From contig NW_027441196.1 of assembly GCF_949628215.1 (NCBI RefSeq), forward strand, positions 124,001 to 188,000: 64,000 nt of DNA. The letters run 5' to 3'. Origin of the DNA: Phalacrocorax aristotelis (Eukaryota; Chordata; Aves; Suliformes; Phalacrocoracidae). Position 1 is the first letter of the stretch, and each line of letters opens with the position of its first letter. The translations under genes were made by a program, and so were the position numbers. Below, in pieces: positions 3,001 through 64,000 of the stretch. The notes under the pieces were generated by a model. The model saw nothing but the letters and a program-made list of their open reading frames with translations. It had not been told where the DNA came from and searched no databases.

Positions 3001-3840
3001 GGACATGGCCAGGAGCTGCCCTTGCAGCAGCCTGACCACCAGAGAGCAGAAAACCTGCAGTGTCTGACAGGGTCTCCCTCTCCTGCCTCCCTCGGCAGGG
3101 TGCTTTGGCATGTTCTCCTCTTCTCCCGCCCACCCTGATCTTACTGTTACACTCTGTGGTGTTGGGGGTGAGGAGTCGAATGCAGCTCAGACCCCAGTGC
3201 TGCGTGTACTGTCATGCACGTATGTCCATGGGGTGAAATCATCCAAGTCTGAGCCTGTTCCCCTCTGGGGCTCTGGGTACTGCAGTGTGTGAGGCTGGCA
3301 ATGATCTCGGCCTCTCTTCAGGGCGTAACAAATGTAGGCGATGGGAGTGTTTCCTTGGGAGGTGCTGCTGGGCCGCAGGCTGTCCTCCAGTAGGGCAAAG
3401 CTCTCCCAGGGCATCTCTGGGTTACGCAGGAGCCCCATGGGGAAGATGCCTCGCGGCTATGGCCGTGGAAATGCTGCTGTGTGGCTGTAAGTGGGCAGCT
3501 GTAATGAGCCCTCTGTGTCCCTGTCTGGGAGGGCAGAGCTGAGATCCTCCTCAGGTACGATGTGGTCTGGAGGGGTTTGGAGATCTGCACTCAGAAACTG
3601 GATTCCTCTGCTCCCATCAGCATCCTGTTTCTTCTGCGAGGAACTGCCGAGGGCAATGGTCCTCCAGGTTAAACAGCTGCCGGCAGAGAGCAGCTGAGAT
3701 CAGGGCTGATGGACAGACTGACTGGCTCCTGCAGAGCCCACAGCAGAGCCTGCTGCTCCCTGGGGCACCCTCCCTCCACCACCACCATCCAGAGCTCACC
3801 CAAGATCTTCCCGATAAGTGAAAGGCACTTTGGGGTTTTT
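1..3840. other. Intergenic, no gene recognised
   Basis: Moderately GC-rich unique-looking sequence upstream of the olfactory receptor. Open frames here are short, overlap on both strands and resemble nothing I know. No repeat family, RNA gene or splice-bounded exon could be supported. Confidence 0.5.
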
Positions 3841-3864
3841 TTTAGAAATTGAATAGTTGCCCTA

Positions 3865-3894
3865 ACTTCTCACATTCTTTACCTCCCTGTTCAG
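3865..3894 (+). other. 3' splice site just upstream of the OR start codon
   Basis: A pyrimidine-rich run ends in TTCAG, 23 bases before the ATG at 3918. Vertebrate olfactory receptor genes typically have 5'UTR introns ending just upstream of a single coding exon. This places the in-frame ATG at 3849 inside an intron and favours the start at 3918. Confidence 0.55.
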
Positions 3895-3917
3895 TGCTCC
3901 ACACCCAGAGGCAGCAG

Positions 3918-4886: not shown

Positions 4887-6466
4887 TGTAGCTCATTACA
4901 GTCTTAGCCTGCCTTCTATGGGTTTTGGTGGTGTTGGGGGTTTCTTTGTATTTCGTGTGGTAATGATGTGCATAACCTAATTTCATTATTCATCCCTCTT
5001 CCAATTCACTGTCTACCTATTGAGTTTGACCCAGAGACTGTGTAAATGAGGAATCATGCTCTGTCTGTATTTATACAAAGCAAAGGACCCTGCAGGAATT
5101 GCTTGTCCGAGACCCTTCCTCTGAGACCTCTGTGAAGCTGCAGGGCCCCTGCCTGTGGGCAGAGGTAGGGGGAAGAATAGTCCCGGAACAGCAGCACTGC
5201 CAGAGACCAGCAGTGTTTGCTCTTTTCAGAGCTGCTCTCTTCCCACCTCCTCACTCCACTTCAGAGCCGCTGTGTTGGTGTAAGGCGTGAGTGCTCTTGG
5301 AGCTTGGTCCCACTCCTGCTGTGTTTTAGTCCTGTGACTGCAGGAAGGGACAGGCAAGGAGCCCTTCTCCGATAGAGCTGACCTCCATGACACCATTTCC
5401 ATCAGGAAAGGGCATCTCCTGAGTGCAGTGTCTGAAGGCTTATGTCTTCTGCCAAAGTTGCTCTCAAGAACATGATAAAGGAATAGACTCTAAAGAGGCT
5501 TGTAGTTTTGCTCACTGACTTCATGGGCTCAGTGAGACGAGATCATGGTCCCAGTATGGCCTTCAAGGGACTGAGGGCTGCTTCAGGTGCTGCTTGTTGG
5601 TGGCCAGCACCCATGCAGGTGGTGAATGGTCTCTCATTGACCCTCCTGGGGCTCTGGAGCATGTGGCAGGGCCGATGGCAGGTGAATGTTTTTCTGTAGG
5701 GACTTGGGAGGTGCCAGGAGAGCAGAGGGGATGTGCAGGGAGGGACAGCGTGTGCCAGGGAGTTGGCAGTGAATGGACCCCACCGAGCAGCAGCCTGTCC
5801 AGCACAGTGTTGCCCAGAGGTGATACCCTAAATGTGGGTGTGAAGTGGCAAACAAGAGCTCAGCAAGCCCAGGGGACACAGCAGGGGCAGGGAAAGGCGT
5901 CTGGTGAATGACTTGTCTTACCCTCAGTGAACTTGCCCAGGCTGGACGCAGCGCAGCACCCAAACCCATCTCACAGCACTGGAATAAGGCGGGTACCTCT
6001 GAGCACCCTCCATGGCTACAGAAGGGCTTGTGTAGGAGGTGGTCAGCGGCAGTGACCAGCACCAGCTGGCTCTGCCTCCCAGCCTGACCAGCACAGTCCA
6101 AGGGAGTCACGCCGTGGTCCTGGGCACCACAGCCCACTTTCTCTGCAGCGCAGCACCGCCAGCTCGGGGGCTGTGGGGAGCATGGGGGCAGGGTGCAGGA
6201 ATGGGCGGCCTGGCCAGCACAGGTGTGCTTAGCTGGGGAAAGGCATCCTGTGGGGAGATGGGATGTGCTGGGAGAGGAGCAGGGCACCGTGTGTGTGCCC
6301 GTGAGGCACGGACAGAGACATCCTTTGGTGCAGGTGCCCGGTTGGGGCAGCAGGAGCTGCCTGAGGAGCCCCTGGGCCAATTCTCTCCTGTCGTGCTGGG
6401 GAGCAAGTTTGGCACGAGGGGCTGCAGAGTGCCTGGGCTGGGCAATCTGCTCAGTGTGTCGGCTGG
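4887..6466. other. Intergenic, no gene recognised
   Basis: OR 3' flank and unique-looking sequence. Frames are open on both strands in the GC-richer part (5.6-6.4 kb) but none has recognisable domains or splice-consistent ends. Confidence 0.45.
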
Positions 6467-6690
6467 ATGAAGATTTTTAGCCCTGATTTATGGGACCAAT
6501 TCTTCTGTGGTTTGGCCCCAAAGCTGGAACTCTCCTGCAGTGAAACCATGACACTCATGCTCTCTGGTTTCATAACCTGTTTTTTAGATCCAATCTCCCC
6601 ATTCCTTTTCATGCTGACATCAATTTTGTGCACAAGAGCTGCCACCGTGGGGCATCTACAGCCTGTGGAGCAGAAAGGATGGGGGCAGGG
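6467..6690 (+). pseudogene. Olfactory receptor relic (extracellular loop 2 to TM5 fragment)
   Basis: The plus-strand frame from 6467 reads DQFFCGLAPKLELSCSET followed by a hydrophobic stretch ending FLFMLTSI. This matches the conserved olfactory receptor pattern in extracellular loop 2 (FFC..xP.L.LSCS-D/E-T) and the following TM5. No TM1-TM3 motifs precede it, and no KAFSTC or NPxIY motif follows in frame. It therefore looks like a truncated, decayed receptor of a different subfamily from the intact gene 1.6 kb away. The match rests on one conserved block only. Confidence 0.5.
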
Positions 6691-7019
6691 CAGCACTGAG
6701 GAAAACACTCAGGAAAGCCATGAGCTGCACAAATAGCCCACTGGAGTCGGGGGGCTGTCGGGAGAAATCACTTGTGGTTCTCTTCGGAACTTGCCCTGAG
6801 GACCCAGACAGGGATGTGCTGTGTTCTGGGCACTCACCTGGCAATGTGGGCTTTTGGTGTCAGGGATATTGAGAAGGTTGGCCAGGTTCATTGTGAGACC
6901 TCTCCCAAACACCTTGGAAAGGCCAGAGACAACAGATGTTCATGGGGACTTTGAAAAGGCAGACATTAAAACAGTCTTCAAAAAGAGCAGGAATGAGGAT
7001 TGGGAGATTTAGGGAGTGG

Positions 7020-7078
7020 TTGGCCACAATGGTGTTCAGGGCTCGCTTCCAACCCCAGTGATCCTATGACTCAATGAC
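7020..7078 (+). repeat. CR1 LINE 3' tail relic
   Basis: CTTCCAACCCCAGTGATCC followed by TATGACTCAATGAC is a degraded form of the CR1 3' terminus (CCTTCCAACC... ATTCTATGA repeats). Only the last 50-60 bases are recognisable. Confidence 0.55.
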
Positions 7079-10000
7079 TGTCTTGTCGTTGGAGAACTCT
7101 GAAGACAGAAAAGGCAAAGGAAGAAGAAAGATTAGAGAGCAGAAGTAGAGATATAAAATGCAGCAGCATAAATACAGCAGTTCTTCTGAGGGACATTTTT
7201 CCACTCATGGTGTTCATGGCCAACAGGGCCACAAGGAGGAGATGGTTGGGTACAGTGTCGTGTGGTCAGTTGTGTCTCAGGAACACCCCATCCAGTAGGA
7301 ATCCAATGGCTGTGAAGGTTAAGAGCAGGACCGTGGCTGGGAAAGGGACTGTGAGGTCACTTTGTGAAAGAGCTGGTGGGTCAGCGCTTGACCCACGGCT
7401 GGGGTATGTGCTTGTAAGCTGATACCTGCCAACATCTCCGAGAGGCTGGCAGAAGGCACCTGGCTGGCACAGTGACTGTGAGATCCCCTCTGCCGAAGGA
7501 GCCAGGCTCACTGCACGAAGGGGGCTTCTGTTCTGGGTGTCGTGTCTCTGCTGCCCGGGGGCCTGATGGGGCAGCAGCAGGCACGCAGCTTGGCCGTGTC
7601 TATGCGAGAAGCTGAAGGGCTGCAGCCTTGGGGGATGACGGTGAGGTTACTTCTGGTGCTCAGGGGAAAGGCCATGGGAAGGCTGACGCGCTGGGACGCC
7701 TGCTTGAAGGGTGGTTTCCCAGTGGTGGAGCTTTCCTTGGAGGGAGGGAAGAGCAGGAGAGAGCAGCACTGCCACACAGGGCAGCCTGGGAGGTGGAGAG
7801 TGGCCATGAGGAGGAAGAAATGTCCCTCAAAGGGTCATGCTGTCGTGCATGAAGTCCTCCCAAAGGAGGATGACATCAGTCCGTCTCTTTGTGTTTCATA
7901 AAACAGAGCGTGAGGATGGACAGACGTCAGTGACTGCATGGCAATGGCAAGTGAGAGCAAGGTGGGGAAGCGAGGGGGGTGTCTGCAGTGTGCAGGGAAG
8001 AAGCAGCTGTGGGACAGCATAGGACAAGCTCTGGGAGAGAAGGCAAAGAGCGCTGGCAAGGCTGGAAGTGGCCAGGAGAACCCAAGGCTTTGTCCCCATG
8101 GCTCTGGCAATCGCCTCTGCCAGCAAAGCCTATGAGGAGACACATTGTCCTCAGGCACTGGGGCCTCCTCGCCTCCTTGCACACCCCAGTGAGGCTGGGC
8201 ACTGCCATACCCTTGTCCTTCACTCAGCATCACACACCCCACAGCCCCCTGCCCCAGGAAGGGCCCTGAGCGCTGTGTGAGGGACAGGATCTGCCTTCCC
8301 CGGGGCTGGGGCTCAGAGCTTGGCCTTTCTGCTTCATGAGGCAAAGCCAGGCTTTTCCCAGCATCTGAGCTGCCGGCACATTACCTTGGCCTCCCTGGAG
8401 TCACGGCTTCCAGTTATCTGCCCTAACGAGTCCCTGGGGAGCCTGTCTCAGAAATGGCCCTCCTCAGTGGGACTCGGTCCTACTTCAAGATTTTTCTTGA
8501 AAAACTTCTTCAAGTTTTGTGCCATCTCCTCTGAGTACCTGAGGTTCAAGGACCCAGCACCATGGGTCTCATTAAAAGAAAGCAAGCCCTAATGAGCTAT
8601 GCCTCTCCCAGTAATTTTCTTGTACTCTTGTACAGTGAATTAGAGACGTTTCCCGGTGGACTTACGGAGAAAGGTTTCAAAGAGCTTCTAATTAAAAGGG
8701 CTTTTTATTTTAAAGGGTGTAGATTAATATTTTTCAATTTAGAGAAAAGCTGATGGCCGCATTCTCCAGTAGATGTTGATCCAGGGTCTCTCCTAAGGAG
8801 ACCTGGACTGGTCAGGGAAGATGTCCCTTCAGGTCTGACACAGTAAGGACAACCTCCCACCGCACCTCCCCAGCCCCATCATGTCTCTCATCAGGCACCT
8901 GGGACTTGTGTTGCTTTTCCTTCCTTCAGCCTTCTCCTCTGCACTCTGCAGCTGGGTGTTGCAGCTCCTTTGCACCAGCTCCCACCTGCTTTCCTTTGAG
9001 AACTGGCTGCACACAGGCAAAGGGGGATTTTCTTATTTTTTGAACAAAATCTGACAATGCTCACCATTAAAATAAAAAACAGCCCTCTTATCTTTATGCC
9101 AAGTACAAGCTGCCACCAATAAGGTTCACCTTCCAGAAGGCAAAATCATGCAAGAAATGTGTTAGACAGAAAGGATATGATAAAATAAACACAATGAAAG
9201 AGTTGGCTAAAGCCAGCATGAGATGGAGTATGGAAAGATAGGCAGGCTTTTAACTCCCTGGTGCTCAAAGCAGCAACTGGATTGTTGAGAGGTGCTTCAA
9301 TGACCAAAGAGTGAGGGGAAGGGAAATCCAGAGACCAATTGCAAGTGTTTCTGTGCAGATGGGCTGCTGGAAAGGTGACTTCAGATGTGGTCAATTTAGG
9401 ACAGGTAGGAATGCATGAAAGATGAGGGAGATGAAATGCACAGCCTAATAGAGAGAGCACTGACAGTGCAAGCCTGGAGGAAGGTCAATAGCTCGCCTCT
9501 TGCTATTAATGCACATCCTGAAAACTCCTCATTTTAGAGAAATCAAGGGAAATCGTGTCATTAAAAGTGTTCAACTGTTTCAGCTGAGGAGGTCGTGCTC
9601 ATCCTTTGAAACACGTGTCAGAAATTCTCTGGTTTTCAGGCAGGGCTCCGCTGTCTGACCGTGAGTATCGAGCGCTGCCTCTGGAGGAGCCAGTGTCTCT
9701 GAAGTACAGCCTGGCACTGGCAGCTGTCACAGAGGAGCTGCTGGAGCGAGAGGCCCTCGGAAGCGGCAGCTGGAGCCTGGGCAGAGGGTCCCAGGGCACC
9801 TACACTGGCACCTACACTGGCACCACGTGCCCATGTCCCTCTAACTGCATCCCAGCCCAATCCTAGCATCACTTGCCTTGGCAAACAAAGGCAGTACAGA
9901 AAATATCCCCAGAGATCACTATATTAAAACAAAACAAAGCAAAGCAAAGCAAGAAGGATAACAGCATCAACAATGTTTGAAGCTTCAAGCTGCACGAGGA

Positions 10001-11739
10001 CATTTCCTTCACTCTACATCGTTCATTCTCTGTTGCTTCAGTTTTTTAAATGATCTCAACATTTCTATTATACCCACAGTATTAAGGAAAATAAATTTTT
10101 GTGTCTGGCACAGAGCCCAGGGACCAAAAATCTCCCTGCCCTGGACTGCCCAGGCCACCTCTAACTCTTGGCACAGAGGGAGTCACGCTCGGAGGTGTTG
10201 ACCTCTCTTGCCTGATGGAGGAAAGCAGGGAAAAAGCTTCAGTGAAACACTCCCTTTTTGGATGGCCAAATTTGCACTGTGCTCATCCAATCTGTGTTCT
10301 CTGTCTATGTCAGTACATGCAAAGATCTATATTTGTGCATAGGTAAATGTAGCGAAAAATGTCGAGGCCTATCCAGTTCCTCAGCGAAATGCATTTCCTA
10401 CCAGCGCTCTGAAGGGGGAATGTTTGTTCTGAGGAACTGCTGAATTTAGCCTGTCTCTGTCACTCCGTCCCCTGCCCCTCTGGGCGCTGGGACCGGGGTT
10501 CCCTCAGCTGCCTTCCCTGTGCTCACAGCGTATTTAGGGAAGCCCTTCTGGGTGCCCTCCCCATGCAGGGCCATTTCCAGGCACCGCTGAGCTTTGCTTT
10601 TGCTGGCTCCATCCCTGCACCCACAGGCCAGGTCTCTAGCTGCCTCCTGGGCAGCCCCTTCCCCCGCCAGCCTCCCTGCACTGCTTCCTGCAGTCTGACC
10701 TCCTGAGTCAGGGGGTCCCTCTTCATCCACGCTGGCCTCTTGCCAGGCCCTGCTCGGCTCCCTGCGCATCGGGCTGGCTTCTTCCTGGGCTTTGAGGACA
10801 TTGTCCCTGGAGATGCAGGAGAGACTCACAGGGTCTTTCCCTCCAGGACAGTCCAAGGAGATCCTCAGCTAACTGAAACGACCTCTCCTGCAGTCCTGCA
10901 CCCTCATTCTGCTAGTTGTCCTACTTCTCCACCACCTCAGGGATTGTGGAGGGATGGACCTTGCCAGGTAATCGAGGGCCTGTGACCATGACACTTCCTC
11001 CAATGCAAGGCTCTGTGCACGCCAGCCTCCCTCCCCTTTGCACGGAGCTCGCCTCCACCTCCTCCCCTGCCCGCCTGCCTTCCAGCAGCTTCTCTCTCCG
11101 TGTGAGAAGGGACCAGCGGTGAGGGCAGCACCGTGGGTCCCAGCTGGGTCTCGCAGGTGGCTGCGGATGTGTGCAGTGGCCACAGTGGTGCCAGAGGGGA
11201 GCCCTGGTGACCTTCTGGGCACTCAAGCCTTGCGAGGCCATCGGTGCCTGGGGAAGCCACCAGTGATGCCACTGAAGTCCCAGAGGCCCTGGGCAGAGGT
11301 CTCCAAACTATCAAAGTTGGGTACAAACGGAGAAAACCTGAGACCGTTGGGTAAAATGTACTTGCTGAGGGTTATTAATTGGTGGGGAGGCTTGGGCAGG
11401 GAAAGGGAGGGATCCAGGTGGATTGTGGAAAAAGAAGCCCGTGGAAGTGCGGGCAGGCGGGGGATTCAATGGGCCAGCTGCCCGTGGGGATGTGGCTGGT
11501 CAGTGCTGGCCTGGCCTTTGCCGTGGAGGTGCGTTGCTGGCTCGTACTCAGGTTGGTGACCCCCGGGACCCCAAGGCCCTGCTCTGCAGCGCTGCTAGCT
11601 GGCTGGTCAGCCCTCAGCATTATGATGGTCACTGTGTGGTTGGATCACAGGCTTTCCTCCCCCAGGGACTTTCTCAGCAGCAGCTTGTCCTTCTTGGAGC
11701 TCAGCTCCACCTCTCTCAGAGGCCCCGTGGTGCTGCAGA
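7079..11739. other. Intergenic, no gene recognised
   Basis: Unique-looking sequence with short overlapping frames. A small AAAAC/AAAGC low-complexity run lies at 9926-9953, and a 12-base direct repeat (ACCTACACTGGC) near 9799-9822. No exon or repeat family could be assigned. Confidence 0.45.
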
Positions 11740-13294
11740 GTCACCTGGGACAGCAAAGCCCTGACGCCATCCACCCGAGGGTGTTGAGAGAGCTGGCTGA
11801 CATCATCGCAAGGCTGCTCTCCATAATCTTTGAGAAGTCATGGAGAACGGAGGATGTCCCAGAGGACTGGAGGAAGGCAAATGTTACCCCTATCTACAAG
11901 AAGGGCTTGAGAGAGGATCCGGGTAACTCTAGGCCCATCAGCCTTACTTCAATCCCTGGGAAAGTTATGGAACGACTCCTCCTGGGGGCCATCACAAGTC
12001 AAATGAAGCACTTGACTGGGAAAAGCCAACATGGCTTCACTAAAGGCAGATGGTGCTTAACAAACCTGGTGGCCTTCTATGACAAAGTGACTTGCCTGGC
12101 TGACATGGGGCAGGCGGTGGACATTGTTTACCTGGACCTCTCCAAGTCCTTTGATACGGCCCCCTAGTCTCCTCCTGGAGAAATTGATGTGTTATGGCCT
12201 AGACAAGTGGTCTGTGCAGTGGGTGGGGAACTGGCTGACAGGCCGCACCCAAAGGGTGGTGGTAAATAGCTCTTTCTCAAACTGGCAACCTGTCACTAGT
12301 GGAGTCCCCCAGGGATCGATATTGGGCCCAATGTTATTCAACATCTTTATAAGTGATCTGCATAACGGCATCAAGTGTAGCCTGATGAAGTTTGCTGATG
12401 ACACCAAGTTGAGCGGGGAAGTAGACACTCCAGCAGGGTGTGCTGCAGGTCCCCTACAGTGCTCTGCAGGGAGATCTGGATAGGCTGGAGGAGTGGGCCA
12501 GCAAGAACCTTATGAAGTTCAACAAGGAGAAGTGTAAGGTCCTGCACCTGGGAAAACATAATCCAGGAGTGCAGCACAGCCTGGGATCCGCCTGGCTGGG
12601 GAGCATCTCTGTGGAAAGGGACCCGGGGGTCCCTGGTGGACAGAAAGCTCAACATGAGCGAACAGTGGCTGCTGCGGCCGAGAAGGCCAACAGGATGCTG
12701 GGTTGCATCAAAAAGGGCATTGCCAACAGACAGAAAGAAGTCATCATCCCGCTCTACTCAGCGCTTGTCAGGCCACACCTGGAGCTCTGTGTACAGTTCC
12801 GGTCCCCGCTGTACAAAAAGGATGTGGCCAGGCTGGAAGGGGTCCAAGAGGGGCCACCAGGATGATCAGAGGCAGTCTGGGAAGCTGCCATATGAGGATA
12901 GGCTGGGAGAGCTGGGTTTGTTCAGCCTTGAGAAAAGGAGGCTCAGAGGGGATCTCATCCCCGTGTACCAGGACTTCAGGGGTGGCTACAAAGAAGATGG
13001 AGACTCCTATTTCACACGGAGTCATGTGGAGAGGACAAGGGGGAATGGACACAAGTTGCTCTTAGGGACATTCCGATTGGCCACCAGAGGGAAATTTTTC
13101 ACACTGAGGACAGTCACCATTGGAATAATCTCCCCAGGGAAGTGGTTGACTCGGACATGTTGGACACCTTCAAGAGTCGTCTGGACAGGGTACTGGGCCA
13201 TCTTGTCTAGGACTGGGCTCTTCCCAGAAAGGTTGGACTAGATGATCGCTGAGGTCCCTTCCAACCTGGGATTCTGTGATTTTGTTTGTTGCTG
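11740..13294 (+). mobile_element. CR1 LINE, 5'-truncated, with reverse transcriptase frame and 3' end
   Basis: A non-LTR retrotransposon of the chicken-repeat-1 family, sense on the plus strand. The reverse transcriptase part begins near SPDAIHPRVLREL (about 11760) and includes the finger/palm block NVTPIYKKG. The catalytic-site block is [14 protein letters not shown] (from about 12299) and KFADDTKL (about 12386). The C-terminal part (NKEKCKVLHLGKHNPG, about 12521 onward) and the 3'UTR follow, ending at repeated ATTCTGTGATTTTG-type octamers near 13271-13294. Frame breaks near 12165 and 12430, plus a shift after about 12630, mean it cannot encode an intact ORF2. The endonuclease and ORF1 are missing, as usual for 5'-truncated copies. 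Its 3' end directly abuts an ERV fragment, so one element interrupts the other or a rearrangement joined them. Confidence 0.93.
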
Positions 13295-13378
13295 TGATTT
13301 TGCATTAATTGTACCGAAAGGTTTTCTTGCCAAGCAGCTCCACTGATTAAAGAGATAGGACTGCAAACCAGAAAGGTC

Positions 13379-13606
13379 TTAGTCCCCATTCTGCCTCCGC
13401 AGTCTAAGTTTCAAAGGTCCCTGGGCTTCACAAGTCCAGGCTTGTCCTGGTGCTTTCTTTACTCGAGAGTAGTGGATCCAGGGCGTCTCTTCCTTGATGG
13501 TGATTGCCATGGAGGTGGTCAGAAGAACCTGGTAGGGTCCGTCCCACTTCTTTCGCAGAGGATCACCTGGAAAAGTCTGATCATAAACCCAGTCCCCCAG
13601 GCTCAA
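13379..13606 (-). pseudogene. ERV integrase C-terminal domain fragment
   Basis: A frame of about 75 codons starts near GDWVYDQTF and contains WDGPYQVLL and PWIHYSRVKKA. The GPY/F-type module and the following SPWIH-like block are typical of gammaretrovirus-like integrase C-termini. The zinc-binding and DDE domains are missing. The stop codon lies 11 bases inside the downstream env-like start at 13389. A remnant only. Confidence 0.75.
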
Positions 13607-13639
13607 AAGGGTGGACCGGATGGATCTAGGACAGCTCTA

Positions 13640-14690
13640 GTACATATCCTCTCTGGGTCCACAGGCATCCTCACCGGGGAACTCTCTGATTGGCCTTGAG
13701 CTCCCGATCCTACCTCATTTGGAGACAGGCCGCTTTCTGCACACTTTCCACTAACTGATCCACCATACCTGTTATGGCCAGGGGATCTCCCTTCTCCAAA
13801 GGGTTCAGCCCTCCTGCCCAATATGCGGCCCGCTGGGTTAATCACCAGGGGGCTCAGCGATTACCTGTAGTTAGGAACATACTTGGAACCCAATAGCCTT
13901 CTGCCTCTTTCTCTGACAGCAACCGTCCATCCCCGCCCGACGGGGACACTCTCCGCACATATTCTCTGTCCAGTTCCTCCGCACACCTTGCAAAGACTTT
14001 ATTCAACTTTACTACTTCAGTTGCTGTAAATGGGACTTCTTTGGTAAGAACTTGAGGACGGTCATCATTGTTGTCCTCCTACAAAGGCTCTCTTTTAACC
14101 AGCGGATACATGGGAGGGAGGCTTTCTACGGTTTGCCTTGCCTTCTGCAAGTCTCCCTGAGGGTAAATTTGCCATAGCCCCTTTTCCAAAAGCTTCACCT
14201 CTACCTCCACCGGTGTATCTGCTTCCCTCAAAAGTTGGTTCCTCAATTCTTCCTTCAGTATGGCATTTTGATCCCTTTCCTCCTTCAACAACTGCTTATT
14301 TTCCTCCAATTGCTCCTGCAGTGACCTTATGACCGTCTGCAGCGAGTCTAATGCGGCATCGGCTTGACAAAGCCTCTGTTTCGTATCTTCCAACACCGCT
14401 GCCAGACTCGCTCCCAGTACCGCGCAAGTGATAGCTTTTCCTTTGCCTGATCTTCTTTCTGCAGCACCCTTAACCTGCCTACTACGCTCTGCGGTGGAAA
14501 CCAATGATTATTTATGCCCAGCCTTGTTCCTGGAGTGAGGGGCGAGATCGGTGCGCCTCCAAAAGATCATATAGCTTATCAATCCCTTCGGCCGGCAAAG
14601 AGGCATAATTGTGGGCATCGCCGGCCTTCTGAGGGCACACCTTATCTAACACACGCCTCCGTCCCTGGAGACGTCAGCTGCTCCTCGACA
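13640..14690 (-). pseudogene. ERV gag remnant (matrix-like, coiled-coil and capsid N-terminal parts)
   Basis: The minus strand carries a matrix-like stretch (about 14680-14540), then a longer frame (14504-14079) with a heptad-patterned coiled coil rich in Glu, Leu and Gln (about 14390-14200), ending in the proline-rich PPMYPLVKREPL. After a stop at about 14079 the same frame continues with capsid-like sequence including EAEGYWVPSMFL and LTQRAAYWAGGLNPLE, broken by further stops near 13860 and 13710. At least one frame change separates the matrix part from the rest. The gag identity rests on the order of parts and on the adjacent integrase end. The family assignment is approximate. Confidence 0.65.
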
Positions 14691-16020
14691 CGCTCACCTG
14701 TGGCACACAGAGCCCCAGCAGACCCACACGCCCACCCATGGGACACACCCTCCCAGCAGTCACAGATGCTCAGCCATGGCACACGACACCAGGGGACACG
14801 CAGCAGGCGAATGGGGTCACCAGGGTGTGCAATAATCGCTGGAGGAGACTTACAAATTAGACTTCTCTTTTCAAAAAAGGTACAGCACGGAAGAAGCTTT
14901 CAGGGTGCAGCACAGCTGACATGTGCCAAATCCATTCCACGCAAGATCCCCAGTAACCTCTAGGTGTTGACAGTTCCAGGAGAACTTGCTCTACTGACCC
15001 TAAGAGTTGTGCGGAGAGTGGAGAGGAGCGGAGTCACCGTGGCCAGGCTCCGTGATAAATGGGAACTCGAGGTACCATGGAGCCGGTAGACTGCACATTT
15101 GCCACCCTGAGCCAACAGTCAGTCGTGCTTTTCACAAAATGCTGTCCTTTTGGTGAACTTTGCTCATTCTAATAGCATTCTAATACCAAATCACACCTCC
15201 ATCCCAAAAGCCACCCTGCTCTAAGGTGCAACCACCCGTCGCTGGGCACACGCTTGGAATTTTTCTAGTCCACGCCTTTAAAAGCAAAGTGGGGAAATTT
15301 TACACCAATCCTAAGAACGGTATGTACGACTAGAGTCACTCCAGCTCCACCTGAAAGGTCAAAATGAGTATAACATAGTTGAAGAGAAAGGGGGTGTTAG
15401 GGAAGACAGCATCGCGTACCACTCGGGCTTCTGGGAGCAGTCGACGGGCTGAGCCTCTCTTCCCCTGCCCTGGCACGCCTTTGCGTAAGCTTTGAACACT
15501 TGGTGATACCAACTGTTTCTCCAGGAAAACTTAGAAACCTCTCGATAGAGTCCCTTTAAATCTCCAGTGCATTCCAACTGCTTCCTATTTGCTTAACGCA
15601 CCTGTAGCCTAGCAGTGTTATGCATTTTCTTGGTATTTCTGTGTGCCTTGTAACCAGCAGATTTATCACCGGAAATGCAAAGAACCTGTGTATCTGTTGC
15701 TTTAATCAATCGTACTATTCGTTAAGCTAGCCGTGATGGTTCTCCCTGAAAGCCAGGGGCCTGGGCATCTGCCCAATTAGGTACTAACAACTACCCTGAT
15801 GGAGGTTAACGTCAACAATCCTGAGGAAATAAACGGTTGACCAAGTCTGAGACGAAGACCGGACTTAGCCGCACCTAGACACCTCTAGGAGAAGGAGTTT
15901 AGGAAAGAAGGGGGTCCTGCCTGAACCTCGGGACTCAACGGTAGCGTCTCTCCCTAGCCACTCCTCAGACTCTTCCTATTAATGCAACAACAAGGGGACG
16001 CACACCCCTCATGCAATCAT
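14691..16020. other. Unassigned stretch between ERV gag and protamine-like gene
   Basis: No LTR, primer-binding site or exon could be recognised with confidence. A 72-codon minus-strand frame (15577-15359) has no identifiable motif. Part of this may be ERV leader or LTR of the gag-bearing element, but I cannot show it. Confidence 0.35.
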
Positions 16021-16026
16021 TGCAGC

Positions 16027-16032
16027 TTTATT
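16027..16032 (-). terminator. Poly(A) signal AATAAA of the protamine-like gene
   Basis: AATAAA on the minus strand, about 100 bases after the TGA stop at 16131-16133. It would give the very short 3'UTR usual for protamine transcripts. Confidence 0.65.
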
Positions 16033-16130
16033 GAGGGAGCCACGAGTGCAGTGGTGCGGGGGCGCAGAGGCAGTGGTGCCCGGGGCTCTCGGGGGCACCG
16101 GCTCCGCAGACGCCCAGCGCCGGGCTCAGC

Positions 16131-16352
16131 TCAGCGGCAGCGCCTGCATGTGCCACGCAGCCACCGGCGCCCTCCAGAGCGGCGGCTGCGTGCCCCGGCC
16201 CGGCGCCGGCTACCCCTGGAAGGGCATCTGCGAGCCCCAGGCCGGCGCCGCCTCTTCCCATCCCGGCGGGCAGGCCGGCTCTGGCAGCGGCGCAGGGTGC
16301 TGCGTCGTTGCCGGCGCTGGGTACGGGTCCTGCTTCGCCGGGGACGGGCCAT
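16131..16352 (-). CDS. Protamine-like sperm nuclear basic protein (galline-like, Cys-containing), 73 aa
   Basis: A single-exon frame of 73 codons from ATG 16352 to TGA 16131 encodes a protein with 33 arginines (45%), one lysine and four cysteines at residues 23, 43, 69 and 72. It begins MARPRRSRTRTQRRQRR. Apart from residue 4, its first ten residues match the start of the chicken protamine galline as I remember it (MARYRRSRTR). Protamines replace histones and compact DNA in sperm nuclei. Gene architecture agrees: intronless, a TATA-like TGTAAAAG about 50 bases upstream, and AATAAA about 100 bases after the stop. Galline has no cysteine, whereas mammalian protamines use Cys for disulphide cross-links, so this would be a diverged or separate avian type. 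Caution: the segment is very GC-rich and other frames are also open on both strands, so an accidental Arg-rich frame must be excluded. The combined N-terminal match, promoter, stop and poly(A) signal favour a real gene. Confidence 0.68.
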   Translation of the reverse strand: MARPRRSRTRTQRRQRRSTLRRCQSRPARRDGKRRRRPGARRCPSRGSRRRAGARSRRSGGRRWLRGTCRRCR

Positions 16353-16400
16353 GCTGGCCACCCTGTCCTGCCGAGGACTGTGCCTCCGTGCCCCTGTCCC

Positions 16401-16410
16401 GCTTTTACAG
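16401..16410 (-). promoter_or_regulatory. TATA-like element upstream of the protamine-like gene
   Basis: Minus-strand CTGTAAAAGC, centred about 53 bases upstream of the start codon. Initiation about 30 bases downstream would leave a 5'UTR of roughly 20-25 bases, short as in other protamine genes. Confidence 0.4.
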
Positions 16411-16590
16411 AGGTGCCGGGGCGAGGCCCTTTGTGACATGGACACATTACAGGGCCAACATCAGCGCTGGCATCACAATGTCCCCACGATGATGCCCTAC
16501 CACACACGGGCTCCGTGGCTACTGGCCGGCCGCAGCCCGCGGGAGGGGGGCGCCTGCCCCGCACCGGCACCAGCCCCGCGTCAACACCTC

Positions 16591-16970
16591 TGAAGCCAGG
16601 CAAAATCGCAGAGTAACTCAAGAGTCAATTTGTCCGAGTACTGAGGAGGTATTCTTTATTGCAGCACTGCGTGCTTAGGGGATCGCTCCTCCCAAGGCAC
16701 ACCAAGCGGTGAGTGCAGCCTGCCTATACACAAGCATGGGATACACATTTCACATATTTCTGGGAGATCTAGTACATGGTTGTGACTCTTGCGGGAATTG
16801 AGGGTTCCACCTTCTTCTCTTCCTTTTATGGTATTTCTGCCCTCCTGCTAATTTGGTTCGATGGGATTTTTTCCTCATCATTGTCTTCCCCAAGGGTCGT
16901 AGCTTCATCCCATCACACTCTTGCATTTACTCAAATTTCATAGCATCCAATACAACCTTACCAACCACCA
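16591..16970 (-). repeat. ERV 3' LTR (ERV-L-like element)
   Basis: About 380 bases on the minus strand, starting TGGTGG directly after a polypurine tract (16990-16971) and ending in ...TTCA at 16591, so TG...CA termini. An AATAAA poly(A) signal lies at 16660-16655. It follows the integrase frame of the same strand by about 330 bases, as expected for a 3' LTR. Only the TG/CA edges and the tract support the exact borders. The LTR ends about 240 bases upstream of the protamine-like ATG and points toward it. Confidence 0.68.
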
Positions 16971-16990
16971 CCCCTCCCCTTCCCATCCTT
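16971..16990 (-). other. Polypurine tract of the ERV
   Basis: Minus-strand run GGGAAGGGGAGGGG immediately before the LTR edge, the usual primer site for plus-strand DNA synthesis in LTR elements. Confidence 0.6.
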
Positions 16991-17302
16991 TGACAAGATA
17001 CACAAATATCATTCCCTTAGTCTATGGACCTTCCCTGTAAAATGTCCGTTAAAACGTCCATTGAGTTCACCTAATCCATGTCTCTGGGCTCCATCTGTTG
17101 TATCAGTCTTTCAGGGTGGGAGAGATGGTGTGTGTGGCGTTGGGTTACTGCGTACCAAGTCAGTCATCGTCCCATCACTGCTGCACTTTACTTGTTTCAC
17201 AGTTTATCTTCCATGGCTTGGGAGGCTCGTACTCTGATATCATTGCTACAACACAGAGGTGACACACAATATTATATAGCAGTTCGCATTGCCCCATTCA
17301 GT

Positions 17303-19035
17303 TCATTGCCTGTTTTCGCCCAAAATCAAACCCCCTTGAGGCACACATCGGACTTCTCCGTCCTCCCGCATCACCCACCAAGTGCACCCAGGTCCTCGAG
17401 CAAAAGCAATCCCAGGAATGGCTTTGCCTTTGCCTGAGGCAGGAAGAACCCAGACTGTGTTGCCCAGCGTACTTTTTGCGTGCGCTACAGGGACTCCATC
17501 CCCTCCCACAGGATGTAGGATTTCTGACTGGGCAGGGCCAGCTCGCCTGGCAGATCCCCTCCTGTTGACTAACCACGTGGCTTTTGCCAAATGTGCACCC
17601 CAGGGCCTGAATGTCCCACCCCTCATTGCTCTCAGCGTAGTTTTTAACAGTCCATTGTACCCCTCCATTTTCCCAGAGGCTGGTGCGTGACAGGGGGTGT
17701 GATACACCCACTCAATGCCGCGCTCTTTGGCCCAGCTGTCTATGAGGTTATTTCGGAAATGAGTCCCGTTGTCTGACTCAGTTCTCTCTGGGGTGCCATG
17801 TCGCCTCAGGACTTGTTTTTCCAGACCCAGGATGGTGTCTGGGCAGTGGCGTGGGGGATGGGAGATGTTTCCAGCCAGCCGGTCGTTGCATCCACCATTG
17901 TAAGCACATGGCACTTGCCTTGGCGGGTCTGTGGGAGTGTGATATAGTCAATGTGCCAGGCCTCCCCATATTTGTATTTCAGCCATCGTCCCCCACACCA
18001 CAGAGGCTTTACCCGCTTTGCTTGCTTGACTGCAGCGCACCTTTCACATTCGTGGATAGCCTGTGCAATAATATCCATGGTCAAGTCCACCCCTCGATCA
18101 CGAGCCCACTGTATGTTGCATCTCTCCCTTGATGGCCTGAGGTGTCATGGGCCCACCGAGCTAGAAATAGTTCACCCTTTTGCTGCCAGTCCAGATCCAC
18201 CTCAGCCGCTTCAATCTTGGCAGCCTGATCCACCTGCTGGTTGTTTCGATGCTCTTCAGTGGCCCGACTCTTGGGGACGTGAGCATCCACATGCCGTACC
18301 TTTACAACCAGGTTCTCTTCCTGGGCACCAATATCTTGCCCCAGTGCGGCAGCCCACATGGGTTTGCCTCTGCGCTGCCAGTTCTGCTTCCATTGCTGCA
18401 GCCAGCCCCACAGGGCATTTGCCACCATCCAGGAGTCAGTACAGAGATAGAGCACTGGCCACTTTTCCCGTTCAGCGATGTCTAAGGCCAGCTGGATGGC
18501 CTTTACCTCTGCAAAGTGGCTCCGTTCACCTTCTCCTTCAGCAGGTTCTGCGACTTGTCGTGTAGGACTCCATACAGCAGCCTTCCGTCTCCGGTGCTTC
18601 CCCACAAGGCGACAGGACCCATCAGTGAGCAGGGCGTATTGCTTCTCATTTTCTGTCAGTTTGTTATAGAGTGGGGCCTCTTCAGCACGTGTCACCCCCT
18701 CCTCTGGTGATATTCCAAAGTCTTTGCCTTCTGGCCAGCCCATGGTCACTTCCAAGATTCCTGGGCCACTGGGGTTCCCTACTCGAGCCTGCTGGGTGAT
18801 CAGTGCGACCCATTTACTCCATGTAGCATCACTTTGTGCTAATCCCACCTGGCACTGCTTGTGGTTCTCCCGAGTGCGGGGGGCTTTGAAGAGCTCTTGG
18901 CGCACAACGGGCACCCAGCCTCTGTTCGCACCATATCCGATTGTCACTCATGGGCTCTTCCTTGACCGTACGCCGGCAGAGTGGCGTTATAACCTTGCCA
19001 GGTGCTCTCCAGCACTCCCTGACCATGATCACCAA
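17303..19035 (-). pseudogene. ERV-L-like pol remnant (connection, RNase H, integrase)
   Basis: Minus-strand remnant of a retroviral pol. The longest frame (18947-18081) covers a connection-like part and RNase H, with acidic residues visible in LLTDGSCR, HFAEVKAIQLAL and LCTDSWMVANAL and the late histidine block VRHVDAHVP. An HHCC zinc-binding motif (WAHDTSGH ... CERC) follows. The integrase core has its Asp in WHIDYITLP, Asp in ESDNGTHF and Glu in KMEGYNGLL; the last two are separated by 35 residues, as in DD35E integrases. Frame changes near 18085 and 17830 break the reading. Reverse transcriptase, protease and gag are missing upstream, so the element is 5'-truncated. The style matches avian class III ERV-L copies; the class call is from recognition. 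Confidence 0.85.
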
Positions 19036-20742
19036 AGATCTCTCTCTAACAAACCATCAAGTGCCTCCTCTTCATAAGCGAGCAGGCAAATCCACTCACA
19101 AGCACTGCTCTCTGGCAGGAGAGCCCTCACTAACAGTTTAGATTAGCAATCAAGACCGGCAAGCACACTTGACAGTAGCACTCAGTTCCAGGAGGACAGA
19201 AACACAGATAAAATCTAGCCACTGCTTCACACCAGGAAAGTGATAAATGCCGGTCTTTTGCGTTACGCTGACATGAGTGTTAGTAACAGGAGATAAAGGA
19301 ACTGACCGGCCTCCAGCTGCGTATTAGTGACAGCTGCTTCCAGCTGGTTCTTTGACTCAAGGCTTACCTGGCCCACAGAACTGCGGGATCCTGCGGAGAC
19401 GAGCATGCCGTTCTCGTCCTTTAGGAAGCTCCTCTGAGGCCAATAGGCTGGATCAGAAGCAAAGGCTTTCCTGTGCCCTGGATTCCTAGGGTCACACACG
19501 CTTGTGCTGTCGGTGTTCACAGAAGTCACACACCTCCTTCCTGCATCCTTCTCTCTGTCTGTATTCAAATTACAGCCATAGTATCAAACTACCAGCAATC
19601 AGGCTTTCACTAATAATTCATCGTCTGGTCTGCGTTTAAACCCAGTTCAAGAGCAAGGCACACCACACCGATGGCTGCTGTGGGATAAGCCTGCTCTTGA
19701 ACCACGCCGGGTGATGCACAGCCCAGGAGTGGGTGACCTGAACCAACAGGCACATCAGGAACCGTCACCTGCATTTTTCCCTCTACCTCACGTATGGGTC
19801 ACCCACACAGCACAGTGCATTGGGAAACGCTTTTTATTTGAGGAACAGATGTCATTCAAAAGGAACCGCAGAACATTTCTCTCCGAGCAGCCAAAGGCAC
19901 TCATTATCGTGACTGCTTTGGTGAGAACAGCATTCCTGCGATGGAAACCTGCAAGTTTTGCACAGAAGACAAAAGTACCAGCAACGTAAGAAACAAATGC
20001 TACCTTACTATGTGAAATTCTATTATTTCATAGCATTTTCCGACTGGCCTAGACTAAGAGGTTACAAGCATTGCCTAACAACTCACAAGAGACTATGGAC
20101 TGGCTTCTGCCTGGAGCTTACTTCTTCCCCACCACAAGCTAGTTATGGTTGGTTACATGGGAAGGGATGAATTGCAGCAAATAAATGGAGTGCGCTGACA
20201 ACCTTGAGAGTCATCTTCCATGAGAAGGGGTTCTGATGGGGGATTAAACTACTTAGTTATCTGCGGCCTTATTTGCATGCTGGGCATGTCCTTGTAGTAC
20301 GATCTGTCCAAGGTCTTGGTCTTTTCTCATGACAAAAGGACAGCAGAGAAGGACAGTAACTGACCTTCATTGCCCTCAAGTCCAAATATACCAGAACTGA
20401 GGTTGATTTGGCCCTACCACCTGTAGGAAACTCATCTGACAGCTACTGGCCTCTTTCCTGCTCTTTATCGTTCTGCCTATTTTTAAGTGAAAGAGGCAGA
20501 AACAAAGCAGAAAGATGTCAGCAAGTGGGAAGAGATTACTGTTTGATCACACAATCAAGTCTATCAAGATGTGTACACCAATAGCTTGATGCTAATCATT
20601 GTTTTAGTTTCAGCTCTCTTAAATTCTCTAAACATATTTACCATAACGTAAATATATGAATTTTGCATAACAAACATTATCATAACAGAAAAAACTCGCT
20701 CTCAACTGGGTTTCTGCTCGTTTCCTACCCATAACTCCCTAC
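19036..20742. other. Unassigned stretch between ERV pol and the ELYS-like exons
   Basis: No downstream AHCTF1-type exon (the expected continuation after 20743) was found here. A minus-strand frame (19568-19263) contains a GTAAGC donor-like site at about 19371 but has no recognisable domain. It may hold the truncation point of the ELYS-like gene or older ERV sequence. Confidence 0.4.
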
Positions 20743-21069
20743 CTTTGGCCAATACACGACTGCTGAAAGGTGCTCTTGGATCCACATATCCTGCATTAGC
20801 TGGTTTTGTTACTGATGAGAATGGCTTTGGTCTTGCGGCTGTAAAGCACGAGGGAAAAACGATCAGCCTTGTGCAATCAAAGCGATGGTTAGTTGTGCGT
20901 TATGTTCCCCCCCAAAATTACCTCCTCTTGGTCCGGATGAAGGCAGACGGGAAGGCTTGGCTCTCCCTGCAGCCAGCTGCCTCGGACCTCTAGGAAGGGT
21001 CTTGCCGTGTTGGCCTGAGAGAGAATTTCTGGCAACTGCTCTCTGTCTCCAGCGAGGAGCACGATCGTT
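20743..21069 (-). other. ELYS-like exons 23-24 (last recognisable exons)
   Basis: Exon 21069-20922 ([18 protein letters not shown]...) and exon 20838-20743 ([11 protein letters not shown]... to SSRVLAK), the latter followed by a good donor GTAGGG. They match in order the ELYS segment at the end of the helical domain. The presence of a donor shows the ancestral gene continued, but the next exons were not found before the ERV at 19 kb. Confidence 0.78.
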
Positions 21070-24000
21070 CTGATGAACAAAAAGCGTAAAGCAAGAAGTT
21101 TCACCCGGTATTTTTAGCCAAGCCGAAGGAAGACTGGAATAACAACAGAACCTACAGCTATAACTTAAAACCATTCCCGCACTCTGCAGAACCTGATTCT
21201 GACACGCTCGTCAGCACCCACAAGTTTCACGTGGCTGACAAAACAGCAGCCTTTCCCTTGTTTTTCCTGAAACGCCGCTGTCCCAGGTGACTGAATCTCC
21301 AGGGCAACGGCGGGTTACTTTGGACAAAAGGAAGTGAGGATTAAAACGAGGAAGAGAAAGCTACCTACACTCCCCATCCCCCTGGATGGAAGCTTTCAAA
21401 TGCAGGACCTAAACCTTCCAAAGCCACCTGGGTAAGTTTGCTTCCCTGGAGAACTATGGTTCCAGAAAACAGCACATGGATCACAGAACCACCACAGAAG
21501 TTCCCATAACACAAAATTTGACCTGCCTATTTTGAGATACAGAAGTTAGGTAAGAATTTTGGTCCTAAAAGTGGTAAAATGAAAGCTGTGGAATTGCAGA
21601 CCTCACGCTATAACTTGAGGAAATAATAAAAAGAACAACCCGTAATGTAAATGTTGCCTGTGGGTTGGCACCCAGAGCTGCGTGCAAGATACCAGAGATG
21701 ACACACAACACACTCTTCATTCCACAGTGACCCAAACAACTTCCAATCATCCGAACCCTACATAACGTACGTCGCTGAATATCTGAATGGTAGGAGTGGC
21801 TGACAGGAAAGATACTTATTTAATCCTCGGACGCAAACTGTTTGAAGTGGAGTCAACAACAGCCTGGAACACGGAATTTCCAACTGCACGGGGCAGCTTT
21901 GGAGTAGTGACACATTTTGTTCAGCTTTTAGGTTCAGCTGTAATGTAAGGTGCAGAGGCTTACTACAAGTATTTCAAAGAAGGGTGTGATAAAGAAAGCA
22001 GGATTCTTACTGAGCGCTGTTAAACCGGTCAGTAACCCCTGAGAGAAACTGGCACACTTGGCAGGACTTTTACGCTTACCATGAGATGAACGTTCATCGC
22101 CTGGTTCAGCCGTGCTGCTGCCGTACAGTTGGCACGCTGCAGGTGCTGGACTAAAAGAATTTCATGACTCTCTAAAAATTTCTCCAAACACTTCTACGAG
22201 AAATAACACATTTTAAAACATATATGATGATCCTGCCTCTTCTCTTGGCAAAGAAGGGATTCAGATTTTCCTCTTGCCCACACTTCCTTGTTCAGAGTCT
22301 GTGAAAGGCAGCTTCAGGAAGTCTCCCACTAGTCCCATCTCCCGACAGATGTCATACATATCTTTTAATAGCTCTTCCTCCTTTAACTGAGCGGCGTCTT
22401 CCTGCAGCAGACCCCAAGCCTCTGCCATGCACCTGTAGTTAATTTTTTGAGATGTAAAGGCGTATTAATAGTATAACTAAAAAGATGCACCACAATTATT
22501 GTGCTCAAAGTTTAAAGGAAATTTAGGGGATTGTGATTTCTAGTGTTTGTTCTCCACCTTTCACAGTATTTCAATGCCAAAACGGTGGCATATATTTCTT
22601 TACCTGTTGGACAACAGCACAGTGAGGAAAAGCCGCTCTTCACAACTGCTTGAGAACGGTGGCTTCATCACCTGCATGTATCTGAGGGCTCGCCTATGCT
22701 GTCCTTGGCACATGAGGGACCCAAGAATTCTCACGTGTTGCCACGACACAGGTTTGGTTGTAGCTGGGTGAAAGAGCAGGGCCAGGGAATTCTGCAGAAG
22801 GGGGAGATCAGGTTTACTAAGATCACAGAATCCCAGGTTGGAAGGGACCTCAGCGATCATCTAGCCCAACCTTTCTGGGAAGAGCCCAGTCTAGACAAGA
22901 TGGCCCAGTACCCTGTCCAGACGACTCTTGACGGTGTCCAACGTGGCCGAGTCAACCACCTCCCTGGGGAGATTATTCCAATGGTGACTGTCCTCAGTGC
23001 GAAAAATTTCCCTCTGGTGGCCAATTGGAATCTCCCCAAGAGCAACTTGTGTCCATTCCCCCTTGTCCTCTCCATGGGACTCTGTGTAAAAAGGGAGTCT
23101 CCATCTTCTTTGTAGCTGCCCCTGAAGTCCTGGTACACGGGGATGAGATCCCCTCTGAGCCTCCTTTTCTCAAGGCTGAACAAACCCAGCTCTCCCAGCC
23201 CATCCTCGTATGGCAGCTTCCCAGTCCTCTGATCATCCTGGTGGCCCCTCTCTGGACCCCTTCCAGCCTGGCCACATCCTCTTTGTATAGAGGGGACCGG
23301 AACTGGACACACAAGCACACAACAAAACTGTTCAAAAGTTTCTTCAGTAAGGGTGAATGTCCTTGATACCGGACAGGTAAATATAAATTCTTTACTATTT
23401 GCAGAAAAAAAAAATCAGTTAGCCATACAGAAAAAAAACAGAGTTTTTTAAAAGGAGTGATTCACACTCGGCTAGGGTAACCAAATCCCCATAGGCAAAC
23501 ATCACTTCTTATAAATACAAGTTATTCTCCCAGACAGGTTGTATTAAAATTGTGACAGACAAAGAGCAACCTTCAGCATCAGAAGGAACATGAATTAGAT
23601 TGAAGAGTCACTTTGGCGGTCTTCTGTCTCAAATCTTGCTGCTAGGATGGTCATTTGACTATTTAAAGTACCCAAACCACTGCTTTTGAGAAAGTGCTTG
23701 ACTGCTCTGCTGAGAACAACCTGAACAGACGGCTTTGGCAAGTCACACGTCAAGCATTAACGTTGACTTCTTCATTGTCTTAATCCATTTCCTGTCAACG
23801 TAATTAAAACCAAACTGCAGATCATCACGTATTCCTGAAGGTGCTGCTGGAGCAGGATTACAAAAAAAGCTTCCCATGTTTTATCACCTGTTATTAGCTA
23901 AGCACCAGGTTTTTAAAGTCATTTGCTAGATCATAGCCTTGTACTACAACGTATGCCTAACTAAACTGTCACATGCTTACTTCATAGTCCTTGTGGTCTA

Positions 24001-27000
24001 GAAGCCAAAATCCTTGAATAAGCTTAACAAGGCCCGAAGGGATGGCAAAGGCAGCTGCGAAGGAGTCGACGGAAGCTTCTGTTTTGTTCGGAAAGGAATG
24101 TATGATGTCCAGCAGCAAGTAAATTGTCTGATATCAAGTATCTAATTAAGGCTAATAAATTTGCAAGACCAACAATTTATCACAGGAAATAATATTATTC
24201 CTATGATTAATATAATAGGAATAAATAATAAAAGGAAATAAGAATATCATAGTGGTAGGACGCAGAAAATACTCATGTATTAGTCTTGCCATTTTATGCT
24301 GTTGCAACCTGAAGGTAGCCAGGCCCTAACAACAAAATTGCATTCCGAATAAATAACCAGAAAGACAGACTCTCTGATTTCTCTAAGGCATTCAGAAAGG
24401 TTGCCTTTCGATATTTAAACAGTTCCGTTGGAAACTCAGGCTCCCTCTTTAGTCACTGGAGCCACCAGCTGGACATTCAAAACACGTGAACGGCCAATGC
24501 TTGATTATTAAAGCAAACAAATTCTACAGTTGGTTTCTTCCCTCCTTTCCAGCGTATATGAAACAACTGAAATTAGGGTGTCCTTACAGCACAGCTTAGC
24601 TCTGAATGATTAAAACTGGATTTGAACCAGTACCTGGATCATTCATCGGCAGTGTCCTTTTCTCTTTCTGACAGCTGTTTTGGGGGGTGTATTCTCATCA
24701 GAGAGCTCCGGGGTGCAACAGCTTTTAAAGCCCCTGCTCTCTAGGCTCCCCTCTCGGGTCAGGCAACAAACAACCAAAGCAACGCAGCGCATTTTGGCAG
24801 CTTAAAACTTCAGTTTCTGCCCAGTGGCTTTTCTCTTCTCTCTCTCTTTATTATTCTGTGTGCCCGCACTTGTAACAGCACAAAAGCAAGCCCTCTTAGC
24901 TGTGCTGGAAAATGGATGATTTCAGCAAAATCAGGTCCTGGTAAACCGCTGTCAGAAATCCTTTTGCTCTGAAGCAGCACATTCTAGTGCATCGCTCGAG
25001 GAAGCAGCCGTTTGCTACAGGTATGGGTGCTTCAAAAATGAAAAACAGTTTACATTTTGAGAAAATCTAAGGGAGCTTTCTACTTTTAACATTGCTTAGT
25101 AAACCTGTTTTCTGATATCAGAAAAGACTTTGCAACAAAACATTTTAAAAATTCCTAAACAATCCACAGTACAAACAAATAATCAGTGCTTCCTTCCGTG
25201 CCTTCATTCTAAACTACATGTTTTCCCTTGCACTGTGTTTGAAGCATAAATTAGAAAATGCATCGAACGCGTAGGTGACAGACATTTCAGACCACTGATG
25301 TGCGTATACTGGAGGTGTGACAGAAATAACTCCAAGGGATACAATTGCATGTTTGTGGCTTTCTTCAACGCCTTCTAGCAAATAGAGCTCCAGCAGTGCC
25401 TGGAATGAAAAGGGAAAAGGTTTTTAAAAACTCCTCTCTTTGAGAAATCATTGGCTTTGGGGGAGGGCTGGGCTGGGGCTGGGGTCTGTGGTGGTGGTGG
25501 TTGTTTTCAGGGAACACAACACTCACCCGTAAACTAGGAGGTGGGTATTTCCCAGTTCCTCCTTCCTCTCTCTGCCACATCTCCTCAACTTGGTCTCCCA
25601 ACTGGGAAACCATCCCATCGACCGTCAGGCAGTCAGAGTCCCATTTGCCTCTGGAACAAAACGTAGCGAGGATTTGACAGAGGAAAACACTAATTCCAGC
25701 CTCGCGGTGTCACAGATTTCCTCCAGCCAAAACAAACCCAGCAAAAGCTCCCACGAGTCCAAGAAAGGAACAAACAGACACAGGCATGATCGTGATTTGA
25801 ATGAGACTGGAAAGAAATTTCTGAGTCAGATGAAAGGTGTTCATTAGATCATAGTGAGCTATTAAAGGAGTTCCAAATAGGAATCCTAGAAGCTCCCTTA
25901 TTAAGGGGAAAGTTGCAGTTTTCAGTTTTTCTTTTTTGTCGCATTACTTGTAATACAAAGGCAGCGTGAGCAAAGCTACCCCAAATCTCACGCCTCCAGC
26001 GGGACTGTTCCCACACACAGCGGTGAGACCACAGCACGGAAATGTCCGGCTTTGTTCTCAGCACCTCGCTTCTGTTACTGAAAAACAGTCACGGTCACAA
26101 AGCTGAGCCCACAGCTGAATTCTGGTACCACCTGAAGCAGCACGTTTGTGCCTCTGCACATGCCATCACAGTGACGGAGGGCTGGCCTGTTAAACACTGC
26201 ATTCCTCAGAAGCCCATCGCAGGCTCCTGCGGGCTGCGACGCCAGCCTTTCATTTCCCGAGGAGGACGAGCAGAAGCAGCACGCTGGAGGTGGTGCTTCT
26301 AAGGAGCCCGTGAGCCTGTACGAGAGTTACCTCAGAAGGAACCTCAGGAAGAGGAGCTTGAAAGCCAACGCCTGACATAGAGCAGCTTCCACCTGGACTC
26401 CTCCTGCAGCACCTTGTTCACGGTGCCACAGCCTGAGCTTCTTTAGGACTTGCTTTAGTTACAGTACAGGTGCCAAATTAAAATCTGCTCTCACCTAACC
26501 CAAGGCACATCACCTGTATGCCAGGGAGCCAGTCCAGGAAAGGGAGTTCCCATGAGGAAGGCACTTTTATCCAGTCGCCAGGAGCGCGCTGGCTGTGCCA
26601 GCTGCGTGGACCTCTGCCCATCTCCTTCAAGGACACCGCGGTGCTTGGGAGTAGGAGATTTGGGCCAATCCCCTTATCGCCATCTACTACTCGTCAAGGA
26701 GAGAGATTATTTTTGGTTTTTAAAACATGCTTTCTTCTGTGTCCAGAACAATTGCTCTGCAAAGGCCGTGCCTTGCTGACCTGGCCGTGACTGACCCTGT
26801 CCTCATCACATGCCCTTTTCCAGTAGTCACAAATCACACAGAATAGCCAGTGAATTACGTGCGCTTCAAAGAAACGATGATACCAACAAAGGGCACTAAG
26901 CAGAGGTATATATCAACGTTTTAACCCAGGAAAGTAACCTCTGTGTTCTGCAGAACACGCGCATCACTGAAGTCAGGGCTGTTGCCGGCAAATGCATGAA

Positions 27001-58970: not shown

Positions 58971-58974
58971 AGCC

Positions 58975-63290: not shown

Positions 63291-63294
63291 TCCT

Positions 63295-63990: not shown

Positions 63991-64000
63991 AAAATGGGGT

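Follow-up and report, generated by a model that had tools for sequence, protein, structure and literature searches.

A cysteine-bearing, protamine-like reading frame within a segmental duplication of a bird genome

The window, a stretch of 64,000 nucleotides (contig C141, positions 124001-188000), carries on its minus strand a protamine-like reading frame of 73 codons plus a stop (16131..16352), which is open in all four copies that we found. The protamine-like gene sits in a segmental duplication or array. With moderate confidence, we favor the explanation that it belongs to the avian protamine (galline) lineage, has diverged within it, and was amplified recently. The evidence comes from the frame itself, from its copies and two older remnants in the same assembly (1.279 Gb in 352 contigs), and from the sequences that surround it.

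The reading frame and its relation to galline

The sequence-only reading had described an intronless frame of 73 codons with 45% arginine, four cysteines, and the N terminus MARPRRSRTR, all of which was borne out when the frame was read. Thirty-three of the 73 residues are arginine (45%), cysteine occupies positions 23, 43, 69, and 72, tyrosine and histidine are absent, and aspartate, lysine, and tryptophan occur once each. The longest arginine run is four residues, and SR/RS sites are present. To gauge chance, the 384-bp region was shuffled 5000 times with its dinucleotides preserved, and each shuffle was scanned for a frame, from ATG to stop, of 50 amino acids or more with at least 40% arginine. 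No shuffle contained one (0/5000; the top value was 30% arginine), whereas 668 of the 5000 held an open frame of at least 73 amino acids; thus, the length of the frame is ordinary for such GC-rich DNA, but its arginine content is not. Additional open frames cross the same bases. Better conservation of one of these had been named as evidence against the gene, and the reverse was observed: a 203-codon frame on the plus strand is shortened in the other three copies, where the minus-strand frame stays intact.

Chicken galline (HSP1_CHICK) starts with MARYRRSRTR, contains 58% arginine and four tyrosines but no cysteine, and is encoded by an intronless gene. Compared with this galline sequence, nine of the first ten residues of the frame product are identical, a match reached by 4 of 500,000 composition shuffles. 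Past these ten residues, 1646 of 5000 shuffles in global alignment and 258 of 5000 in local alignment scored as well. The motif SRRSxGGRR, chosen post hoc, is common to both proteins and was reached by 79 of 200,000 shuffles. BLASTP without composition correction returned E values of 4e-13 to galline and 3e-6 to human P1, which were set aside because composition inflates them. The earlier suggestion of a diverged avian protamine is supported by the N-terminal match, by an intronless layout as read from the frame alone, and by homologous promoter and start sequence on contig C35 and a homologous 3' end on contig C4; within the protein, this support is confined to the first ten residues, the rest of the chain not standing clearly above composition.

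Searches of protein families and databases were of limited use. The frame product had no match in Pfam, PF00260 included; this silence says little because galline was also missed; human P1 was matched. The product likewise did not fit the P1 signature, which we take to be [AV]-R-[NFY]-R-x(2,3)-[ST]-x-S-x-S. None of 62 candidates in the protein database scored for the frame product and none of 170 for galline, and since galline itself went unmatched, this database is uninformative on birds. Two weak matches to solved structures (E 0.35 and 0.51) were to unrelated proteins and were rejected. In the genome, the galline query yielded 0 candidates and missed even the four known copies, so its empty result shows nothing on a second galline-like gene. 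The protein search with the frame product scored 13 candidates and gave nine matches, namely the four copies and five loci at E 0.66-2.5 (L027-L031); the latter were rejected as protamines on their arginine content, four of the five being without any 50-residue stretch at 30% arginine and L028 having stretches of 32-36% arginine within long Gly/Pro/Ala-rich frames. This search found no further protamine-like gene beyond the four copies.

Copies, gene unit, and older remnants

A DNA search of the genome with a 451-bp query found six places, comprising at least four full copies (99-100%) and at least two partial ones, all copy counts being lower bounds. The full copies lie in the window, on contig C42, and twice on contig C240, and all four are open and free of stops. 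In comparison with the stretches fetched from C240 and C42, the gene-bearing duplication covers positions 1..36270 of the window: the second C240 copy (C240b) matches 1-36270 at 98.7-99.8%, C42 matches 1-28942 at 98.9-99.9%, and the first C240 copy (C240a), which is rearranged, matches pieces of 7580-36106 at 87-99%. As only the fetched stretches and matches above 400 bp were considered, these extents are minimum values, and the outer limits lie beyond them. C240a (L011-L013, at about 42-72 kb of C240) adjoins a rearrangement junction, and pieces of window 29590-18837 are inverted ahead of it. A separate repeated stretch at 57706..63926 recurs about 78 kb upstream on the same contig (C141:104001-110228) at 98.8%.

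Relative to the window, the frame differs at 0 of 222 positions in C42 (flanks, 22/3050), at 1 of 222 in C240b (flanks, 18/3062), and at 3 of 222 in C240a (flanks, 36/3062). R57C is present in both C240 copies, and R14Q together with one silent change in one of them, so that of the three changes in the frame, two are amino acid replacements. The copies can be distinguished by the variants at 16408, 16312, 16197, and 16184. Between copies, the frame thus appears to change about as fast as its flanks, with no sign of constraint among these few changes. With only two amino acid changes and one silent change, dN/dS between the recent copies is uninformative.

The TATA-like element and AATAAA signal that had been claimed around the frame were both confirmed. 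The TATA-box position (16402..16409, minus strand) reads TGTAAAAG in the window copy and is separated from the downstream ATG by 49 nt, a stretch (16353..16401, minus) that presumably contains the 5' leader. The AATAAA polyadenylation signal (16027..16032, minus) follows 98 nt past the stop. The other three copies and the remnant on C35 carry TATAAAAG at the TATA position, from which the window copy differs at 16408. A genome-wide scan for the pattern TATAAAAG-N40-70-ATGGCCCG gave five matches: three of the four copies, the C35 remnant, and C4:8221579, the last of which was rejected as a protamine-like gene as it lacks an Arg-rich frame. The same pattern read backwards, used as the control, gave six matches; the count of five is therefore no more than chance, and only the identity of the matches is informative. 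Judging from the sequence of this element, the three TATAAAAG copies would be likelier transcript sources than the window copy, whose TATA box is changed.

Homology to two remnants elsewhere in the genome sets the outer limits of a gene unit of about 600 bp (15987..16588, minus), within which GC content is 0.68-0.77 against 0.47 in the flanks and CpG observed/expected is 0.63-0.87 against 0.37-0.54. At C35:24686465, the remnant covers promoter and leader sequence over about 230 bp, with 79% identity to window 16588-16355, and retains the first six codons before a repeat that, by eye, we take to be CR1. The remnant at C4:84201828 holds 170 bp of the C terminus and 3'UTR, 85% identical to window 16156-15987; it is preceded by a repeat, and two stops interrupt its corresponding frame. 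Since C35 has homologous promoter and start sequence and C4 a homologous C terminus and 3'UTR, the gene unit predates the array, and the divergence of the two remnants (K80 of 0.24 and 0.17, respectively) makes it much older. The codon for Cys69 also encodes cysteine in the C4 remnant, where codons 71 to 73 differ and the Cys72 codon is not cysteine; Cys23 and Cys43 lie in the region kept by neither remnant. Neutral evolution was simulated along a branch with K of 0.08-0.12, with indels assumed to occur at 0.1 per substitution. The frame stayed open with a chance of 4-13% with indels and 31-44% with substitutions alone, and its openness over this branch is suggestive rather than strong evidence.

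The C35 remnant is probably sex-linked because its contig bears a CHD1-type locus. A search of the genome for PF13907 gave four matches, against none in 14 control genomes that are uninformative here. Two of the four, on contigs C36 and C35, are CHD1-type C-terminal exons that encode the same protein, with DNA identity of about 75% across 1.6 kb. CHD1 is a Z/W marker in birds, and from the sequence of these loci, C36 and C35 are likely to be the sex-chromosome pair; two CHD1-type loci on two contigs fit a ZW female. Together with the 1.279-Gb genome and the presumed CR1 and olfactory receptor frames described below, they also suit a bird. C35, which at 31 Mb is the shorter of the two, is probably the W. 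If the unplaced array contigs belong to the W as well, the gene would have no role in sperm.

Mobile-element sequence lies on both sides of the gene unit. Retroviral fragments flank it at window 18947-17306 and 13636-13382 (both minus) and include RNase H, a weak integrase, and an MLV-type integrase C terminus. Just upstream of the unit, a second AATAAA (16655..16660, minus) is presumably part of an LTR-like end, a label given by eye, and still farther upstream lie the frames for the weak integrase and RNase H; the homology to the remnants ends short of this LTR-like end at about 16655 (800 bp compared). A reverse-transcriptase frame is presumably a CR1 element, and an inverted repeat pair (12877-13283 and 22819-23224, 94-97% complementary) also appears CR1-like by eye. 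Elsewhere in the window are an olfactory receptor frame of 346 codons from stop to stop (3846-4883, plus; PF13853, E 7e-50) and two ELYS/AHCTF1-like beta-propeller exons (38201-37911 and 36436-36194, minus; PF16687, E 6e-37 and 5e-27), about 20 kb away from the protamine unit. A frame at 43585-43343 (minus) had no match in Pfam and by eye presumably resembles the RBBP6 RING region (IPDELLCLIC...). The kilobase at 63001-64000 is strongly purine-rich (AT skew 0.70, GC skew 0.30).

Competing explanations and the origin of the cysteines

Descent from the galline lineage has several observations against it: the P1 signature fails, arginine stands at 45% instead of 58%, aspartate and tryptophan are present, and the frame changes about as fast as its flanks. 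The main rival holds that the frame is a relic, that is, a once-working protamine gene that was segmentally duplicated in a repeat-rich, possibly W-linked or silent region and is now losing arginine codons by CpG decay, with cysteine, tryptophan, and some glutamine as products of mutation. We regard this as a possible though tentative explanation. All four cysteine codons being TGC, with R57C and R14Q (two of the three frame differences) of the same type, would follow from it, and it agrees with a frame that is no slower than its flanks, with the altered TATA box of the window copy, and with the fragments of retroviruses and of reverse transcriptase that flank the gene. It is also in keeping with the breakage of two further loci, one on a CHD1-bearing contig that is probably Z or W, but fits poorly with the finding that all four copies have an open frame and three of them an exact TATA box. 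The CpG content of the gene unit, elevated over its flanks as given above, is unlike long methylation decay, and Cys69 is common to the older C4 remnant.

Two other explanations are far less probable. That the frame encodes a different testis or nuclear basic protein resembling a protamine, such as a transition protein or an RS-type protein, would suit its arginine content below that of galline, its aspartate, lysine, and tryptophan, and a chain that after residue 10 is not alignable clearly above composition; given the MARxRRSRTR start and the protamine-size intronless layout, we consider this very unlikely. That GC-rich DNA produced an open frame by chance seems least credible of all: frames of at least 73 amino acids are common in the shuffles (668/5000) and other frames are open across the same bases, but no shuffle in 5000 reached 40% arginine, the N terminus matches galline, and the three copies that shorten the 203-codon plus-strand frame keep the minus-strand one.

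If the gene does belong to the galline lineage, it would be transcribed in spermatids, and by analogy with known protamines, the Arg-rich stretches of its product would neutralize DNA phosphates, replace histones, and condense sperm chromatin. With less confidence, the four cysteines of this tyrosine-free protein might form intra- or intermolecular disulfides in late sperm, in which case cysteine would take the role of the cysteine of placental mammals or of the tyrosine proposed for marsupials. The absence of tyrosine is what a swap of cross-linkers would look like by this analogy. All four cysteine codons are one CpG transition away from CGC, and the differences R57C and R14Q between copies are the same type of change as CGC to TGC; mutation alone could therefore supply the cysteines without selection. 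Of the disulfide-capable design proposed from the sequence, the four cysteines are present, whereas the design itself is only possible, as mutation pressure could suffice. We consider it unlikely that this bird lineage independently replaced tyrosine-bearing sperm chromatin free of disulfides with a protamine cross-linked through cysteine, by its own mutational route of CpG transitions from arginine to cysteine codons, with the gene amplified into a multicopy array.

A working cysteine protamine in a bird, if true, would represent an independent origin and would make it possible to ask whether the stability of sperm chromatin, the protection of DNA, or sperm competition tracks the residue used for cross-linking. 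If the gene is instead a relic, the locus would still show protamine genes that were duplicated, relocated to what is probably a sex chromosome, and disrupted, and how cysteines may arise in Arg-rich proteins through CpG decay.

Comparison with known protamines

The frame product resembles galline in its MARxRRSRTR start, small size, arginine richness, SR/RS sites, and intronless gene, and differs from it in having 45% instead of 58% arginine, no tyrosine instead of four, four cysteines instead of none, and both aspartate and tryptophan; in addition, the gene is present here in at least four copies within a large duplication. Like mammalian protamine P1, it is Arg-rich, bears cysteine, and starts with MAR. 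Unlike human P1, with which it shares five of its first ten residues, it has its cysteines at other positions and lacks tyrosine, which P1 has. A cysteine-bearing, tyrosine-free, multicopy bird protamine would be new among known protamines. No cysteine-bearing bird protamine was found in the literature on protamines, amplification, and neighbor genes, in which subscription journals are thinly covered. The original paper on the cysteine protamines of Planigale is reportedly that of Retief (1995).

The accessible text of one source describes rooster protamines as being without cysteine (PMC12877042), and the accessible portions of three others make no mention of cysteine in a bird protamine (PMC8812575, PMC11607694, PMC7290884). 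Cysteine is sporadic in invertebrate sperm proteins, according to the part available of PMC11607694. Disulfide cross-linking of protamine is described, in the available part of PMC7126135, for placental mammals, with Planigale as the exception among marsupials, for which tyrosine has been proposed as the cross-linking residue; in Planigale, cysteine replaces tyrosine at conserved sites (PMC7126135). As far as that text goes, the present case resembles Planigale in that cysteine was gained in a group whose protamines are without it. While the cysteines of Planigale stand at former tyrosine sites, here the cysteine codons resemble former arginine codons, and tyrosine is absent.
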